Of a DNA stretch of 64,000 nt, positions 46,873 through 62,227 are shown piece after piece. The notes beneath the pieces are model-generated. The model saw only the letters and a program-made list of their open reading frames with translations, did no database searches and was not told the origin of the DNA. Numbering within the stretch: the first letter of the stretch is position 1; each line of letters starts with the position of its first letter. Origin of the DNA: Planctomycetaceae bacterium (lineage in GTDB: Bacteria; Planctomycetota; Planctomycetia; Planctomycetales; Planctomycetaceae); the NCBI GenBank assembly GCA_021732995.1, contig JAKFWA010000025.1:62001-126000 (forward strand), in the 5' to 3' direction. Position numbers and translations under genes: made by a program.

Positions 46873-47334
46873 ATGGCGACTACCGCGCGAAGCCGAGGCA
46901 GTAAGACGCGAACGAAGAAGGCCGTATCTCCGCCGGAGCCAACTTTCGTCGGAGCTCTTTGCTTTCTGAACGTGGGGGAACAACGGCAGGAGCATCACAT
47001 ATTGCACTGCTTGGGTTTCGAGTTCATTCCGAAGATGGGTGACATCTTTCGGTTGAGCGAGTTCGAACAACGAGAAGTGTATCCAGAGTCGATCCGTCAT
47101 GACCTTTGGATCGTCAGCCAAGTCATCCACGAGCTCTATCTAAACCCGGAAGAATCCCCGCCGGAAACCGCCACTTCGAACTTCATTGTTGAGCTGCGGC
47201 CGGTACGCGCCGTCATCGCTGGCCTGATCACGAAATACGCGCCGGTGAGGCTCCGAAGCGAGCCCGCTTCCGCTCCATCAAAAGCCACAAACAACGTGCC
47301 CAAGAAGTCAGCACAGTCGTTGGGCACAGGTTGA
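46873..47334 (+). CDS. Hypothetical protein in the element
   Basis: The protein has 153 residues from the ATG at 46873. A basic N-terminus (ARSRGSKTRTKKA) is followed by a mixed alpha/beta domain with PTFVGALCFLNVGEQRQEHH and RHDLWIVSQVIHELYLNPEE. An earlier ATG nine bases upstream lies too close to the AAGGA site to be used. Preceded by leader copy 2. No family recognised. Confidence 0.6.
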   Translation: MATTARSRGSKTRTKKAVSPPEPTFVGALCFLNVGEQRQEHHILHCLGFEFIPKMGDIFRLSEFEQREVYPESIRHDLWIVSQVIHELYLNPEESPPETATSNFIVELRPVRAVIAGLITKYAPVRLRSEPASAPSKATNNVPKKSAQSLGTG

Positions 47335-47683: not shown

Positions 47684-48027
47684 TGTTCGCCCCGTCGCAC
47701 GTTGGTCTTTGACTGATGAGTGAGCGGGGCGAATTCGTTTTAGGCGGGCCAGTTTGGCCCGATTGACCCTCTTAAGAACGGTCGCCTCGCTCACTCATCA
47801 GTCCACCGAAACCAGCCCCAGCTTTGCCCGACGTGCGACAACACAAGGCGAAGTTTGGGGCTGGTTCGTTTTCCGGGCACTGAATGAAGTTCGACTGTCG
47901 TAGCCGGACTTCGCCGAGCAGTGATTCACTCGATTTTGTGCACGCATGCACGCCTATCGAGAGGCGTGGTCAATACTCGTTTGTCACCTGATAAGCAGAT
48001 CAGGTGTTACTCAATGGAGCAGCCAAG
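47684..48027. other. Non-coding region with nested inverted repeats
   Basis: Exact 16-base arms at 47711-47726 and 47788-47803 (GACTGATGAGTGAGCG and complement) enclose a smaller pair around GGGCC/GGCCC. A further pair at 47811-47825 and 47851-47865 (ACCAGCCCCA and complement) is followed by CGTTTTCC. No gene is seen. It may be a small RNA, terminator pair or recombination site. Confidence 0.55.
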
Positions 48028-49377
48028 ATGGCGTCATGGATGTGGACAGTGATAGCTCTCTTGGGGGCACTACAAATGAGCGCATTGCGAATTGCGAGTC
48101 TGGAAGACGAGCCCGGTTCATTGGCAGGCCGAGAGGCCGACACAGGGCCACTGCAGGTAGATTCGGAACCACCGATTCTCTTGCCAATGGCACGCGGCGA
48201 AACAGCTCCCACAAGCCGGACTGAGGGCCAGCAACAAGCCCCCGTCTTGCTTTCGATCGAGGCGTTGCGTCAGGTCATTTCCGAATGCCATCTGATCAAC
48301 GGTCAGATGGTAATGCAGCCGGGCAACCCGTCTGGAAGCGGCATTGCAGCCAGGGGCGAACCGGTCTATCTGCGGCAGTGTTATGAGTGGACGAAGGCCG
48401 CGTGCGTTTGGGCCGAGTCCACGGCTCGCGAGTACCGTTTGACCGTGGAACGCTGGGAGAAGCATTGGAGCCGTCGAGGCAACCCCACCGGCCCGGACAT
48501 CCGCGACATCAAGGATGGTGACTTCGCGAAGTATTGCCAGGTGCGTGATTGGCACGGTCGCACGGCTGAGCTGTATTGGACCTACTTCGAGAAGCTGCTG
48601 AAGTCGGCTACGCCGAGAACATCACGGCTCAAGTACGGTCGCGCTGCAGCGGACGTGATCCTTAGAGAGTTACCGACCAGCGGCTTGGAAGGCCGCATTG
48701 AGACGAGCGAGGTTTGGGATGAAGAAGTCGCTACGGAAAGCCTGTGCGTCTACCACATCTCGCGATTGATGGAGGCCGCTCAGTGCGCCACGTGGCCCAA
48801 GTGCCCGCCGGGTATCTCGCCTGGTCTGACCTGGGCTGGGCTGCTGTGGCTCGAATGGTACTGCGGCCCGCGCATGGCCGACGCAATCAAGATGGATCTC
48901 CGCAACTTCGACTGGACCAAGCAGACCCTCAAGTATCGGGAGTCCAAGCGCAAGAAGATCGTCATCGTCCCCATTCCGGACGTGGCGATGCCGTTGCTGC
49001 GTACTCTCAAGGCCGCGGCTGAGCAAGCCGGTCGGAAGCGACTGTTCGCGTTCCCTGAGTACTGCATCAAGAGTCCGACCGGAACGCTCTACAAGTGGCT
49101 CAGTCACTTCCACGAACTCGCCAAAGTCGAGCCGCTGAAGAAAGCCGAAAGCGGGCGGACTGAATGGTTCCACCAGTTCCGCAAGAGCTGCACCTCGCAG
49201 TGGATCGAGACCGCTTCGGGTCTCCAACGATTCTTCGTCGGCCACAAGACCGGCGATGTGAGCGATGACCATTACGCCCGCGTGTTGAAACAGATGCGTG
49301 AGGCGGCTGTGAACTATCCCGTCCCCGACTGGTTGACGGCCTGGAACGAAGCCAACAGCCAGCGGGCATCGGGTTGA
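48028..49377 (+). CDS. Tyrosine recombinase (integrase)
   Basis: The protein has 449 residues from the ATG at 48028 (GGAG upstream). The C-terminal half has the catalytic set in order: Arg in WYCGPRMADAIKMDLRNFDW, Lys in RESKRKKIVIVP, HQFRKS (HxxR), then GHKTGDVSDDHY with the late His and the nucleophile Tyr. The middle region (residues of about 110-200) is the core-binding helical domain (TAREYRLTVERWEKHW). It cuts and joins DNA through a 3'-phosphotyrosine and would integrate or excise the element. It could use the tRNA-Lys site. A GTG 24 bases upstream is an alternative start. Confidence 0.9.
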   Translation: MASWMWTVIALLGALQMSALRIASLEDEPGSLAGREADTGPLQVDSEPPILLPMARGETAPTSRTEGQQQAPVLLSIEALRQVISECHLINGQMVMQPGNPSGSGIAARGEPVYLRQCYEWTKAACVWAESTAREYRLTVERWEKHWSRRGNPTGPDIRDIKDGDFAKYCQVRDWHGRTAELYWTYFEKLLKSATPRTSRLKYGRAAADVILRELPTSGLEGRIETSEVWDEEVATESLCVYHISRLMEAAQCATWPKCPPGISPGLTWAGLLWLEWYCGPRMADAIKMDLRNFDWTKQTLKYRESKRKKIVIVPIPDVAMPLLRTLKAAAEQAGRKRLFAFPEYCIKSPTGTLYKWLSHFHELAKVEPLKKAESGRTEWFHQFRKSCTSQWIETASGLQRFFVGHKTGDVSDDHYARVLKQMREAAVNYPVPDWLTAWNEANSQRASG

Positions 49378-50183: not shown

Positions 50184-50243
50184 TGATCCGTGGCTCAACG
50201 GGAGTGCCACACAACGGCTCGGGTTCGAACCCCGGCGGATCAC
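50184..50243 (+). tRNA. Minimal tRNA-like sequence (degenerate)
   Basis: Acceptor-like 7-base arms TGATCCG (50184-50190) and CGGATCA (50236-50242) enclose a GCTC/GAGT D-arm-like hairpin, a GCC ACACAAC GGC arm and an intact T-arm (TCGGG TTCGAAC CCCGG). At 59 bases it is far shorter than a tRNA, has no variable region and lacks T33, so it is a remnant or tRNA mimic rather than a working tRNA. It lies about 90 bases upstream of the csrA-like gene. Confidence 0.4.
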
Positions 50244-50330
50244 TTAACACGCGACGCGCGGCAAGCGTCGCGGACCAGAGAACAGGGAGTTCGCTGGTCA
50301 TCGGTGCCGAGAGCTTGGGAGGGCTCTGTC

Positions 50331-50540
50331 ATGTTGGTTCTGAGCAGGAAGACGGATCAGACGGCGGTAGCTCGGTTGCCAGATGGCCGCGAGATCGTGG
50401 TCAAGGTGATCGAAATTCGGAACGGCACTGTGCGACTCGGCTTTGAAGCCGATCGTGACATCACGATTGATCGCCGCGAGGTGCACGACGCCAAGCAGCA
50501 GGGCCTGCCGACCATGCTCGTCACAACGGCGGGAGGTTGA
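50331..50540 (+). CDS. csrA: CsrA-like RNA-binding protein carried by the element
   Basis: The protein has 69 residues: MLVLSRKTDQTAVARLPDGR, then VRLGFEADRDITIDRREVHD. It keeps the CsrA beta-strand order and the basic IDRREV strand that contacts GGA motifs, while the loop after strand 1 (TAVARLPDGRE) is changed. CsrA copies on phages and plasmids can redirect host post-transcriptional control. The ATG at 50331 has GGGAGGG seven bases upstream. Longer in-frame starts would run through the tRNA-like sequence and are not used. Confidence 0.9.
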   Translation: MLVLSRKTDQTAVARLPDGREIVVKVIEIRNGTVRLGFEADRDITIDRREVHDAKQQGLPTMLVTTAGG

Positions 50541-52857: not shown

Positions 52858-54108
52858 GTGCTGATCGTCGACCTGGCGAACCTGGTGGTGCGGAGTTACC
52901 ACGTCGGCCAGCCGTCTGAAGTGCACGCGGTGCGCGGCATGCTCGACACCGTGGCCGGTCTGATCGAGACCTATCACCCCGAGCTGCTGCTGTTCGCGGC
53001 GGAAGGTGGTCACGATGTCCGCTGCCAGCTCTATCCGGACTACAAGGCACACCGCAAGCCGACCGAGCAGAACCTGAAGGATCAACTCATCCTGGCTGCC
53101 GCCACCTGCGAGGGCATCGGCTGGCCAGTCCTGAAATCATCCGGCTATGAAGCCGACGACGTGATTGCCACGCTGGCCCGCTATTGCGGACCTCGCAGCG
53201 CTGGCGTGGTGATCGCATCCACCGACAAAGATCTGCTGCAGCTCACCACCGTCGACGGTGTCACGGTGCATGACCCGTATGGCATCAAAGGCCGCGTGAC
53301 TGCCGACCTCATCCACAAACGGTTTGGAGTGGGTGCGGATCAACTCGGCGACCTGCTGGCCCTGGCTGGCGATGCGTCCGATGGTGTGCCCGGAGTCGAC
53401 GGCATCGGCGAGGGCACGGCGGCGAAGCTGCTGAACGCTCACAAAACGCTCGACGGTGTCCTGGCCTTCGCCGCTCAGATGGCGACGACGAAGACCACTC
53501 AGACCATTGCCACGCTGCACCAGCAACGCGAACGAGCTTTGCTCAGCCGGCGCCTGGTCGAACTGTTGAACTGCCCGCTGCCGTCGAGGTGGTGGACCTG
53601 GCCAGCCGATCGACCGCGCCCGCATTGGGGCGAACGCCTGGAGCGGTCCAAGTTGTTCAAGTCCGCGAACCGCCTGAGCCAGTTGCTGGGCGAGCCATCA
53701 GAACACCCGCCGCTGGGTGGTCTGATGGAGTTGATCACCGAAAGCTCTCCCCCTTCACAAGGGGGAGCTGGAGGGGGTGAGGCCCGAACACCGACGGCAG
53801 CGGCGTCAGAACTGACGACCGGATCCATGGCCGTCACTTCTGACGCCGGGATCCCGGAGGACGTCTTGCGACTCCATTACGGCCGGGGTGTGGACTGGCG
53901 AGCCGAGTCACCGGGCATCGTGGCCCGCATGAAAGCTCGGACGCCCGAGGAGTACTGCCGCGAGTTCTGGGAGCACGAGGCCCCCGAGCTGCTGGCATTC
54001 GCACGCGGTGCCCTCGGGTTGCCGTTTGAGGATCAACGCTCGAAGCCTGCTGGCGTCGAGCAACCAATGAAGTTCGCACGGGCCACGGCTCGCGCACTGT
54101 TTGAATGA
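52858..54108 (+). CDS. 5'-3' exonuclease (T5/polA N-terminal type flap nuclease)
   Basis: The protein has 416 residues from the GTG at 52858. Conserved metal-site blocks are VLIVDLANLVVRSYH, LYPDYKAHRKPTEQ, SGYEADDVIATLARY, IASTDKDLLQL, and GDASDGVPGVDGIGEGTAAK, the helix-hairpin-helix. These bind two metal ions and trim DNA 5' ends or flaps during replication or recombination. The C-terminal third is a tail with a Ser/Gly-rich segment made by a repeat. The start is uncertain, because the frame is open upstream without a stop through the previous gene. Confidence 0.85.
   Translation: MLIVDLANLVVRSYHVGQPSEVHAVRGMLDTVAGLIETYHPELLLFAAEGGHDVRCQLYPDYKAHRKPTEQNLKDQLILAAATCEGIGWPVLKSSGYEADDVIATLARYCGPRSAGVVIASTDKDLLQLTTVDGVTVHDPYGIKGRVTADLIHKRFGVGADQLGDLLALAGDASDGVPGVDGIGEGTAAKLLNAHKTLDGVLAFAAQMATTKTTQTIATLHQQRERALLSRRLVELLNCPLPSRWWTWPADRPRPHWGERLERSKLFKSANRLSQLLGEPSEHPPLGGLMELITESSPPSQGGAGGGEARTPTAAASELTTGSMAVTSDAGIPEDVLRLHYGRGVDWRAESPGIVARMKARTPEEYCREFWEHEAPELLAFARGALGLPFEDQRSKPAGVEQPMKFARATARALFE
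53745..53782. repeat. Palindromic repeat inside the exonuclease coding region
   Basis: CTCCCCCTTCACAAGGGGGAG (53747-53767), a near-palindrome, is followed by CTGGAGGGGGTGAG. In frame it encodes Ser-Ser-Pro-Pro-Ser-Gln-Gly-Gly-Ala. It looks like an intergenic-type repeat captured in frame. Confidence 0.55.
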
Positions 54109-58336: not shown

Positions 58337-58728
58337 TGTTACTTCGATGGGATGAGCAACTGCAGCAGACGCGTCTCGCACTTGAGCACGCGGACAAACG
58401 CTACAACTCCAGCAACTTTGAATGGCACGCCTGGCCGCAACAGTGGAGTAATTCCGGCTGTGGTCGGAGCGGCGGCGGGTTGGTGATGCATGCGTTCTGG
58501 ATGGCGCAAACCGTCATCACCAGCGGCGATTCCGATGAAGTGCTGGTCTATCACAACGGTCACTTTGCCTACGAAGTGAAGAAGCCATTGCCAGCTTTCT
58601 GGATCGCCTGCGGAGAACGCAAACTGCCAGGAGAACGCGATTGGCCAACTGTCGGTCACACGTTCGACGCGACGATGAATCCACCGCCCACGGCTGACAC
58701 AAAGGCGAAGAAGAAGGGCCAGCGGTGA
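58336..58728 (+). CDS. Hypothetical protein
   Basis: The protein has 130 residues, with many Trp and aromatic residues (FEWHAWPQQWSNSGCGR) and a compact beta-rich middle (DEVLVYHNGHFAYEV). Ends in a Lys-rich tail. Its ATG overlaps the previous TGA and its stop overlaps the methyltransferase start. No family recognised. Confidence 0.65.
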   Translation: MLLRWDEQLQQTRLALEHADKRYNSSNFEWHAWPQQWSNSGCGRSGGGLVMHAFWMAQTVITSGDSDEVLVYHNGHFAYEVKKPLPAFWIACGERKLPGERDWPTVGHTFDATMNPPPTADTKAKKKGQR

Positions 58729-60983
58729 GTGGATACCTCGGCAGCAAAGAGGCTTGCTGGAAGCGGATCGCGCATGAGATCCCCGAATGCGACGTTCTCA
58801 TTTCGCCGTTCGCGGGGCAGTGTGCGTTGACCCGGCTGATGAACCCGCCCAGGCTGCGAGTGGTTGCCGATCGTGACCCCGACGTTATCGATTGGTGGCA
58901 CTCGAATGAGCCCGGTGTTATGGCTCTTCAGCGGAATGCGACTGCCTGGCTCGAAGAGCTGGCTCTGAATGTCTTCAGCCAGGTCGTTCAGTCGTGCCCG
59001 ACGCGCGAGAACTTCGAACAGCACGCCGGTCGCTTCGCCAAGTGGATGGGTTTAGCCAAAGGTGAACTCGGTGGTCTCAACGATGATGGTCGCGTGCTGC
59101 TGAAGGTCGATGGCCAGTGGGTTCAGCCGTTGCCGCTCACGACGTTGCCGCGTGAACGCATCCGTGAATTGCTTGAGCTGGCGACGCCACAAATGGCGGC
59201 GTGGCCGGCTCAGAGGCGAACTGCTGCAGCGTCGCCAGATTGGGCGGCGCTGCCGACGGTTGTTGATTGGCCGCAGTGGTGGGACAAGGTTGTCATCTAC
59301 CTTGATCCGCCGTACCTCTTGAGCACTCGCTCGCATGAAGGTTCGGTCTATCCATGCGACATGACCGACGCCGATCACGTGCGTCTGTTGCGGGCGCTCC
59401 GCTGGTTGCCGTGCTGCGTCGTGATCTCCGGCTATGCCTCGCCGCTTTATGAAAAGCATCTCAATGGCTGGCGACGGATTGAGTTCCCGGTGATGTCTCG
59501 CGGCGGACCAAAGACCGAAGTGCTGTGGACCAACGGGCCAATTCCGACGCTTCATCAAGACAAAAGCCAGTTGGGTACAAACCGGCGGGAACGCGAGAAG
59601 TACGCTCGCCGAGATCGTCGCTTATCCGCGAAGTTCGAACGGTTGCCATTGGGCGAACGGCTCAGATTGTTCCACGCGGTGCGGAGTACTCTGCCGCCGG
59701 AACTGGCGGCAGCGGCCGTTCTGGAGTTGCCTCGAGATCCCGCCGCTGAAACCGGCGGCGTGCGATCGCAATGCCCGGGAATCGTCGCCGGAGCTGGCGG
59801 CGCGAGATCTCACCTCGAGGTAGCGTCGCCAGAAATGGCGGCAGCCGCGGGCGCCGCCACAAACGGCGTCGCTCGAGCCTGCAGGACTCGGCAGCCGTTG
59901 TTAGCCGTCGACGGGTCACGTGAATTCTCGAGCGCGAGCGGCGGGAGCTCGGTCACGCGTGACTCCTCGATGAGTGACCGCACCAGGTGGGGCCACGCCG
60001 GCAACGTCACACGTGACTCTGCGATCGGCGAACGAGCAAGGGCCCGCCACGCGGGAGCAGGCGGCGTGCTGTCGCTCTATACCGGGCTGGGACTCTTGGA
60101 CCGGGCGTTCGAAGAGCGAGGCTTCACAGTCGATTCCGCAGGCGACTTACAGTTTGGCAAGCCGATCCAGAGTTATCGCGGGCGGTTGCATTCGCACGAG
60201 GGCATCATCGCGGGACCGCCGTGTCAGACCTGGTCGAGTGCTGACCCGCTTCGAACACCGAAGAGCCAGGTGGATTTCTCGGCGACATCAACGCATGAAG
60301 GAGTCGTCACGTTGCGGGAGCTGCTGCGCGTGATCGACGAAGTTCAGCCGCTGTGGTTTCTTGTGGAGTGCGTGCCTGGCGTCCCCGATCTGGTAGCCGG
60401 CGGGTACCACGTTCAGCGGTTCAATCTGACCGATGTGGAATGCGGCGGGACTCAACGGCGGTTGCGATCGATTCAGTTTGGCTCGCGTGAATTCTCGAGC
60501 GCGACCGAGGGCGGCCGCGTCACGCGTGACGTCGCAGCGGCGTGTGACGCGGCAGCCATTCACACGCCGCGTGACTCGACGGCAACAATTATCCGCCCCG
60601 CACGTCTCACCGGATGTGTGCCCACCGAACCGGCTGTCCTGGCAAGTCGTTGCCGCGCAGACGAAGCCGCGTTTGAGCGACGTTGCCGCACCATGGGTCT
60701 CGAGCAAATTCCGGATCTTTCTGCCTTCACCAAGGCCACGCGGTTTCGTTTGGTGGGCAACGGAGTGCCTTTGACGATGGGGCGTGTCCTGGCACGTGCC
60801 GTTTGCGAACGGGGGCCCGTCACGGATTCAGACTGTGTCTGCGGATGCGGTCAGATCCGACAACCGGGGTCTCAATACTCAGCGGCTTCGAACGCGGGCT
60901 GCCGTAAGCGCGTCAACCGCCGGAAGTCCGAGCGGTACTTCGTTGGTCGACCGTCGCCAGATCTGGCGGCGGCACATGGTTGA
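58725..60983 (+). CDS. Fused DNA N6-adenine and C5-cytosine methyltransferase
   Basis: The protein has 752 residues. Residues 1 to about 290 are a Dam/D12-type m6A methyltransferase: YLGSKEACWKRIAHEIPECD, LISPFAGQCALT, and YLDPPYLL (motif DPPY). About residues 325-445 form an Ala/Ser/Arg-rich linker. About 448-690 are a C5-cytosine methyltransferase: SLYTGLGLLDRAFEERGF, GPPCQTWSSA with the catalytic Cys, FLVECVPGV, TQRRLR, and VGNGVPLTMGRVLARAV. A C-terminal short zinc-finger-like segment (CVCGCGQ, then GCRKRVNRRK) follows. Both catalytic sites look intact. Two methylation activities in one chain would protect element DNA from host restriction. Confidence 0.85.
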   Translation: MSGYLGSKEACWKRIAHEIPECDVLISPFAGQCALTRLMNPPRLRVVADRDPDVIDWWHSNEPGVMALQRNATAWLEELALNVFSQVVQSCPTRENFEQHAGRFAKWMGLAKGELGGLNDDGRVLLKVDGQWVQPLPLTTLPRERIRELLELATPQMAAWPAQRRTAAASPDWAALPTVVDWPQWWDKVVIYLDPPYLLSTRSHEGSVYPCDMTDADHVRLLRALRWLPCCVVISGYASPLYEKHLNGWRRIEFPVMSRGGPKTEVLWTNGPIPTLHQDKSQLGTNRREREKYARRDRRLSAKFERLPLGERLRLFHAVRSTLPPELAAAAVLELPRDPAAETGGVRSQCPGIVAGAGGARSHLEVASPEMAAAAGAATNGVARACRTRQPLLAVDGSREFSSASGGSSVTRDSSMSDRTRWGHAGNVTRDSAIGERARARHAGAGGVLSLYTGLGLLDRAFEERGFTVDSAGDLQFGKPIQSYRGRLHSHEGIIAGPPCQTWSSADPLRTPKSQVDFSATSTHEGVVTLRELLRVIDEVQPLWFLVECVPGVPDLVAGGYHVQRFNLTDVECGGTQRRLRSIQFGSREFSSATEGGRVTRDVAAACDAAAIHTPRDSTATIIRPARLTGCVPTEPAVLASRCRADEAAFERRCRTMGLEQIPDLSAFTKATRFRLVGNGVPLTMGRVLARAVCERGPVTDSDCVCGCGQIRQPGSQYSAASNAGCRKRVNRRKSERYFVGRPSPDLAAAHG
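59713..60045. repeat. Dense array of six-base palindromes in the methyltransferase linker
   Basis: By eye I count about 20 perfect six-base palindromes in about 333 bases (CGGCCG, CTCGAG four times, CGATCG twice, CCCGGG, AGATCT, CCGCGG, GGCGCC, CTGCAG, GTCGAC, CACGTG twice, GAATTC, GAGCTC, ACGCGT, GCCGGC and GGGCCC). About five are expected by chance. Several sit inside longer palindromes, such as TGCGATCGCA at 59761-59770 and GTCACGCGTGAC at 59952-59963. Confidence 0.75.
59921..60530. repeat. Direct repeat module: GAATTC/CTCGAG block then GTCACGCGTGAC
   Basis: TGAATTCTCGAGCGCGA occurs at 59921-59937 and 60488-60504. In each case GTCACGCGTGAC follows (59952-59963 and 60519-60530). The protein repeat is GSREFSSA, then SSVTRD and GRVTRD. 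The first copy is in the linker, the second between C5 motifs VIII and X, where the target-recognition region lies. The coordinates span both copies. Confidence 0.7.
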
Positions 60984-61897: not shown

Positions 61898-61969
61898 CGT
61901 CACGCGGCTTTGTCGTCGAGCTGGGGGGTGATGGGCTCGCGGTAGGGAGTCGCGGTACCTCGCCGCCAT

Positions 61970-62227
61970 TTATGGCGGCGGAGCCTGGTAGCCACCGAGC
62001 ACGGCATTGATCCAGTCCCAGCCGCGTTCCTGGCATGGGGGGCACGGCTGCGGGTTTATCGCTTTATCGGAAGTCGATAATTCGCCGCCGTGGCCGGGGC
62101 AGAGCAGCGGAGCCAGGCCTGTGAGTTCGCAGCGGCCATCGGGACGAAGCGGGCAGCTCGATTCGGGCAGAATTACTGAATTACGTAATTCGGTAATTTG
62201 CCCCGAAGAGCTTGAGCGGTCGGGCAT
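61970..62227 (-). CDS. Small Cys-containing hypothetical protein downstream of the large minus-strand gene
   Basis: The protein has 85 residues, starting two bases after the stop of the 62230 gene on the same strand, which suggests translational coupling. It contains Cys pairs (CPLRPDGRCELTG, CPGHGG, CPPCQERG) that could bind zinc. A 46-base near-palindrome lies inside its coding region, encoding QITELRNSVIL, and its end is formed by a GCCGCCA-type repeat. No strong ribosome site. The call depends mainly on position and Cys pattern. Confidence 0.45.
   Translation of the reverse strand: MPDRSSSSGQITELRNSVILPESSCPLRPDGRCELTGLAPLLCPGHGGELSTSDKAINPQPCPPCQERGWDWINAVLGGYQAPPP
62162..62207. repeat. 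AT-rich near-perfect palindrome
   Basis: The core AATTACTGAATTACGTAATT (62171-62190) and the next eight bases form a 28-base palindrome with one mismatched pair, flanked by TTCGGG and CCCGAA arms. It is strikingly AT-rich among GC-rich DNA. Confidence 0.7.

Follow-up and report, generated by a model that had tools for sequence, protein, structure and literature searches.

Why should a few hundred bases inside a DNA methyltransferase gene of a planctomycete prophage be crowded with short palindromes? The stretch concerned, positions 59713-60045 of the window (the whole 64,000 nucleotides of Planctomycetaceae DNA analysed), lies in the linker between the two domains of a 752-aa ORF (58725..60983, + strand), whose matches to PF02086 and PF00145 bear out an earlier description, made from the letters alone and here called the sequence-only reading, of a dual gene: it fuses a D12-class m6A to an m5C DNA methyltransferase. 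The gene belongs to a prophage of ~42 kb that runs from near a tyrosine integrase gene at its left end (48004..49377, + strand; phrog_1 match, E 1.3e-13; PF00589) to about 88 kb in window-frame coordinates, that includes genes for an exonuclease, tape measure, protease, portal and large terminase, and that holds all the repeat units described below for this DNA. It also carries a gene for a CsrA-family regulator (window 50190-50540). Searches against Rfam families gave no match except a tRNA.

Recounting gave exactly 20 perfect six-base palindromes in the stretch, several nested in longer palindromes that are present as the sequence-only reading had stated. The stretch is extreme, being the densest 333 bases of the window (the next holds 13) and of a null sample covering 2.0 of the 9.39 Mb of the same genome, in which 333-base stretches carry a mean of 4.4 six-base palindromes and at the highest 19, 18 and 16 (that with 18 is a tandem repeat); for eight-base palindromes the count in its neighbourhood rises to 10, compared with a maximum of 8. 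The earlier estimate that chance predicts about five is right for the genome average but fails for local composition: 9.6 are expected from the dinucleotide composition of the region itself (p=0.009), and resampling synonymous codons with the protein held fixed yields 10.1-12.7 (p=0.009-0.03). High-GC viral contigs (L384 and L405) reach up to 25 in 333 bases, so that a high count, taken by itself, is not rare among phages. As a bare count, then, the 20 palindromes are a real but mild excess, about twice composition at p ~0.01 and equalled or exceeded in high-GC viral contigs, and we rejected the count as the main finding. The palindromes are of 15 different kinds, and 17 of them form the ends of cassettes, or lie inside or against the dyads of a second repeat family.

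The first family, A, is an 18-base near-palindrome, GNCGCC-N6-GGCGNC, with 18 matches in the prophage against 0.22 expected. Its core, CGCC/GGCG, occurs in excess with a spacer of 6 only, spacers of 4, 5, 7 and 8 being at or near background. The match at 64350 (GGCGCCATCGGCGGCGCC) is probably due to chance and was excluded, which leaves 17 units, eight inside the window and nine outside. When the motif was refined, 11 of its 12 matches in the organism's own genome fell in this prophage and one elsewhere; dispersed host REPs were rejected on these grounds, the motifs being nearly absent from the chromosome. The second family, B, is defined by GTCAC-N2-GTGAC with a shared flank and occurs in the same setting. 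Beyond the window, copies of both are present at window-frame 72.3-72.6 kb, and further copies of A at 76.9, 83.4-83.5 and 84.3 kb.

Within the window, on the + strand, A dyads stand at 59183..59200 (GACGCCACAAATGGCGGC, with GCCGGC 3 nt to its right) and 59231..59248 (GTCGCCAGATTGGGCGGC, with CTGCAG 1 nt to its left), as found by scans for the dyad motif and its flanks; both fall in the variable segment that precedes the DPPY motif of the methyltransferase. Further along the same strand are a series of cassettes: AGTACT-2-GCCGCCGGAACTGGCGGC-2-CGGCCG (59685..59718); an A-like cassette with arms 6-7-6 between CTCGAG and CGATCG (59731..59768), which has 90% identity over 30 nt with a copy at window-frame 72495-72524; CCCGGG-4-GTCGCCGGAGCTGGCGGC-3-AGATCT (59774..59810), read in another frame (VAGAGG); CTCGAG-5-GTCGCCAGAAATGGCGGC-2-CCGCGG (59814..59850); and CCGCGG-2-GCCGCCACAAACGGCGTC-1-CTCGAG (59845..59877), again in another frame (AATNGV), the last two having CCGCGG in common. 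Three B dyads (GTCACGTGA, GTCACGCGTGAC and GTCACACGTGAC) occupy 59907..60027, with GTCGAC, GAGCTC, GCCGGC and CGATCG adjoining, and an A unit, GTCGAC-1-GTCGCCAGATCTGGCGGC, lies close to the gene end (60948..60970). Beyond the gene, GGTACC-2-GCCGCCATTTATGGCGGC (61954..61979, no strand assigned) marks the meeting point of two converging transcription units. Separately, an AT-rich imperfect palindrome, AATTACTGAATTACGTAATTCGGTAATTT, lies at 62170-62200, in GC-rich surroundings close to where the early and late genes converge, and the exonuclease gene contains, at 53821-53854, a near-palindrome, GCCGTCACTTCTGACGCC, between two GGATCC sites, possibly a further cassette with a B-like core.

The feature that sets these units apart is the position of the palindromes around them. 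Of the 34 flanks of A dyads, 22 have a six-base palindrome 1-3 nt beyond the dyad, against a background of 8 of 214 (3.7%) in the genome sample; distances of 1, 2 and 3 nt account for 7, 7 and 8 cases, and every other distance for 0 to 3. In held-out clusters outside the window, 12 of 18 flanks were palindromic (p=5e-11). Relocating the anchors within the same neighbourhoods gave a mean of 2.7 palindromic flanks and a maximum of 10, control dyads in viral contigs had 7-8%, and a synonymous-codon null for the 16 genic units predicted 5.6 where 21 of 32 flanks were observed, a value reached in 0 of 4000 trials. The placement of the palindromes therefore exceeds what protein sequence and codon usage explain. 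Their sequences vary from unit to unit: CTGCAG, GTCGAC, GGTACC, GGATCC, AGATCT, CGGCCG and GCCGGC all occur, as do CCGCGG, CTCGAG, AGTACT, GACGTC, CGATCG and AGGCCT.

Sixteen of the 17 A units are genic and one is non-genic; they are found on both strands and, in five genes, in frame, leaving the reading frames unbroken. Thirteen of the 16 read as [STP]P..A[ATS] and three in another frame (VAGAGG, AATNGV and AAGNGV), identical DNA being read in different frames among units. In the methyltransferase region they mark the m6A/m5C boundary, the gene end and the convergent end at 61964; outside the window they lie in the C-terminal tail of a small gene (72310-72783), in a linker in the middle of the protease, in the N-terminal tail of the terminase and close to where a gene at 84213-84944 ends. 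From this gene layout we read the unit positions as gene or domain boundaries. The frames at window-frame 72310-72783 and 71588-72313 (L056, - strand) overlap, with the tail genes on one side and the tape measure on the other; the pair occupies the position of frameshift-made phage tail assembly chaperones, with the repeats in the tail of the first.

A 51-nt B segment of the linker (59913-59963) is repeated at 80% in a second B segment at 60480..60590 (+ strand), within the target-recognition region of the m5C domain. There it forms an insertion of 30 residues relative to five homologues, the nearest ones, all of which are without it; the length of this region varies widely among more distant viral homologues (70-150 residues; 104 here).

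Among the possibilities listed in the sequence-only reading was a place where small palindromic repeats are inserted, and this one is supported: the palindromes prove to be ends and cores of repeats whose family also occurs at further boundaries in this prophage. On balance we lean towards regarding the stretch as a tandem cluster of short palindromic cassettes, of REP/RPE type, multiplied inside this prophage lineage. Each cassette would consist of a six-base palindrome of any sequence, 1 to 3 nt, GNCGCC-N6-GGCGNC, again 1 to 3 nt, and another six-base palindrome. Copies would have multiplied at the DNA level, through insertion or duplication, and survived only where the protein tolerates extra residues, namely in linkers and tails where genes or domains meet; clusters inserted in this way could extend a boundary until one gene runs into the next, and at the m6A/m5C junction the cassettes would fill the linker that joins into one two genes separate elsewhere. 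We infer the insertion of A units, because no empty site was found in a close relative. The variable palindromic ends may be junction products or maintained cassette ends. Their independence of sequence suggests to us either a step of joining or copying from which symmetry results, such as hairpin opening, or selection for symmetry itself. A bolder version, possible though we hold it only tentatively, is that these are a phage-borne class of cassette, defined by symmetry-making copying or joining, or by symmetry selection, with no fixed recognition sequence, which installs linkers at domain boundaries; hairpin opening at junctions would then leave additions resembling P nucleotides. No transposase candidate was found nearby.

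A second genome carries the same layout. In a planctomycete MAG (G010; JAEUIH, 'Planctomyces sp. isolate new MAG-38'), two prophages with replication, exonuclease, tape measure, terminase and portal genes show it at homologous methyltransferase loci, with the half-site GNCTCC and close variants. Palindromes stand at 1-3 nt on 8 of 10 flanks there, compared with 3 of 54 in the other sampled parts of that genome, support that is strong but post hoc, as the case was noticed by eye and neighbouring units share palindromes. A generic scan for the architecture across the G010 contigs gave no overall excess, the signal being found only at the methyltransferase loci. In that genome the m6A and m5C methyltransferases are separate, overlapping genes, and no fusion of the two was seen among the 64 viral-contig m5C homologues examined. 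One G010 dyad overlaps the conserved YFGG motif of the m6A protein, and a perfect 18-base palindrome, GAGTCGCTCGAGCGACTC, lies at the 5' end of an m6A methyltransferase gene (L053 4040-4057). Homologues without palindromes, which the sequence-only reading had said would count against it, do occur: a unit with palindromes on both sides was present in none of the 64 viral-contig homologues examined, yet the two nearer homologues in G010 carry the layout. An exact-motif search of related viral contigs returned scattered single matches with 7% palindromic flanks; the only contig with both flanks palindromic, L266, was discarded as an apparent chance match within a long ORF.

Of the competing explanations, an array of binding or recombination sites fares best, although we consider it unlikely. 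A phage recombinase, or a partition-like or packaging protein, would recognise GNCGCC-N6-GGCGNC, and the boundary positions would reflect module exchange or DNA handling. This accords with the strictly fixed spacer and conserved half-site, with the occurrence of copies at module boundaries, and with the half-modules (palindrome, spacer and half-site) that reappear in new combinations among units. Sites of tyrosine recombinases (dif, pdif) have two inverted arms around a variable 6-nt centre, and the inner arms of the A units, with their spacer of 6, fit such sites; the outer arms, however, are not conserved in sequence here. Palindromes without common sequence could not be read by a protein, which leaves the flanks unexplained; moreover, the units are irregularly spaced, and none lies near the integrase or the HTH gene at 47331. 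Repressor operators were rejected separately, as no unit occurs near that HTH gene or anywhere in the prophage before 59 kb.

That the units were selected for stem-loops in the mRNA, which would slow translation or make transcripts more stable where domains meet, appears quite improbable. Folding z-scores are strong at two places only, the terminase cluster (-5.1) and the tail-gene cluster (-3.2), whereas the methyltransferase linker (-2.0, -0.15 and -0.7) folds no better than controls (-2.6 and +0.4), and six-base palindromes, having no loop, contribute nothing to a local hairpin. We give equally little credence to an origin in the protein, whereby Pro/Ala-rich linkers of the form [STP]P..A[ATS] with G-ending codons would mimic the dyads, and alanine-rich, GC-rich coding would yield the palindromes. 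The common frame and peptide of 13 of the 16 genic units speak for it, and composition alone predicts half of the 20 palindromes; three units nonetheless lie in the other frame and one at a convergent gene end, and the explanation is contradicted by synonymous resampling, which does not produce the flanking palindromes. That most units share one frame and a similar Pro/Ala peptide indicates that protein selection acts too. Methyltransferase target, decoy or autoregulatory sites, also listed in the sequence-only reading, are very improbable: their location in a methyltransferase gene and the shared layout at the homologous G010 loci are in their favour, but 15 kinds among 20 palindromes are too diverse for one methyltransferase, the same units sit in genes of other kinds (terminase, tail, protease), the layout is missing from the 64 viral-contig homologues examined, and an autoregulatory binding region found no support.

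The nearest described kind to these palindromic cassettes is that of the REPs, including intragenic ones, and the Rickettsia palindromic elements (RPE). Flanking palindromes of unrelated sequence are not, to our knowledge, a feature of REPs. Like REP elements of the GTAG and CGTC types, the cassettes are small (20-40 bp) palindromic repeats, in many copies, clustered and in some cases genic, and REPs do occur inside genes, some in frame, including DNA-related genes (PMC3733652). Whereas REPs are dispersed in many copies over the chromosome, mostly between genes, the refined matches here are nearly all in one prophage and the units nearly all genic. REPs bear a terminal GTAG or CGTC tag; here there is no GTAG, and CGTC precedes the dyad in some A units only. 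CGTC families have stems of 8-9 bp, loops of 4-5 nt and no dedicated transposase (PMC3733652), against a stem of 4-6 bp and a 6-nt loop for the A core, and GTAG REPs accompany a Y1 transposase (RAYT) flanked by repeats, whereas none of the genome's four Y1 transposase genes (PF01797) is on contig C11. Unlike REPs, too, A cassettes end in six-base palindromes of varying sequence. With tag, stem length and transposase association all differing, we did not file the cassettes as REPs.

RPEs are described as palindromic DNA inserted, in frame, at tolerated positions of unrelated protein genes (PMC3733652). The A units are present in frame in five genes; insertion relative to homologues was seen for the B segment only. 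RPEs are chromosomal and from another phylum, and are not known to us to be flanked by palindromes of arbitrary sequence; the cassettes here are in prophages. PARCELs (PMC2996958) are likewise dyad-symmetric repeats in coding sequence that are associated with mobile elements and spread by exchange, but they are tandem 25-residue amphipathic domains of membrane-associated ORFs, with much longer units. Mobile hairpin elements of organelles (double-hairpin elements) are small hairpin-forming sequences that proliferate in one compact genome; they differ in being organellar and mostly non-coding, and are not known to us to have six-base palindromes of variable sequence at a set distance. Among open-licence papers, our searches turned up no account of cassettes whose palindromic ends vary.

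Small palindromic repeats inside genes are known from bacterial chromosomes, but the present family is found in phage genomes only, and the palindromes at its borders have symmetry in common, not sequence. Symmetric ends with no conserved sequence point to a testable mechanism of joining or copying, and the cassettes would offer one route by which phage proteins could acquire in-frame linkers and gene fusions.

Two further observations concern the methyltransferases of this prophage. The m5C domain has ECV (window 60366-60377) where its nearest homologues have the ENV motif, a substitution that may alter methyltransferase activity. A second D12 methyltransferase gene (L097 9736-10716, - strand) lies near the far end of the prophage, beside a lipase-like gene.
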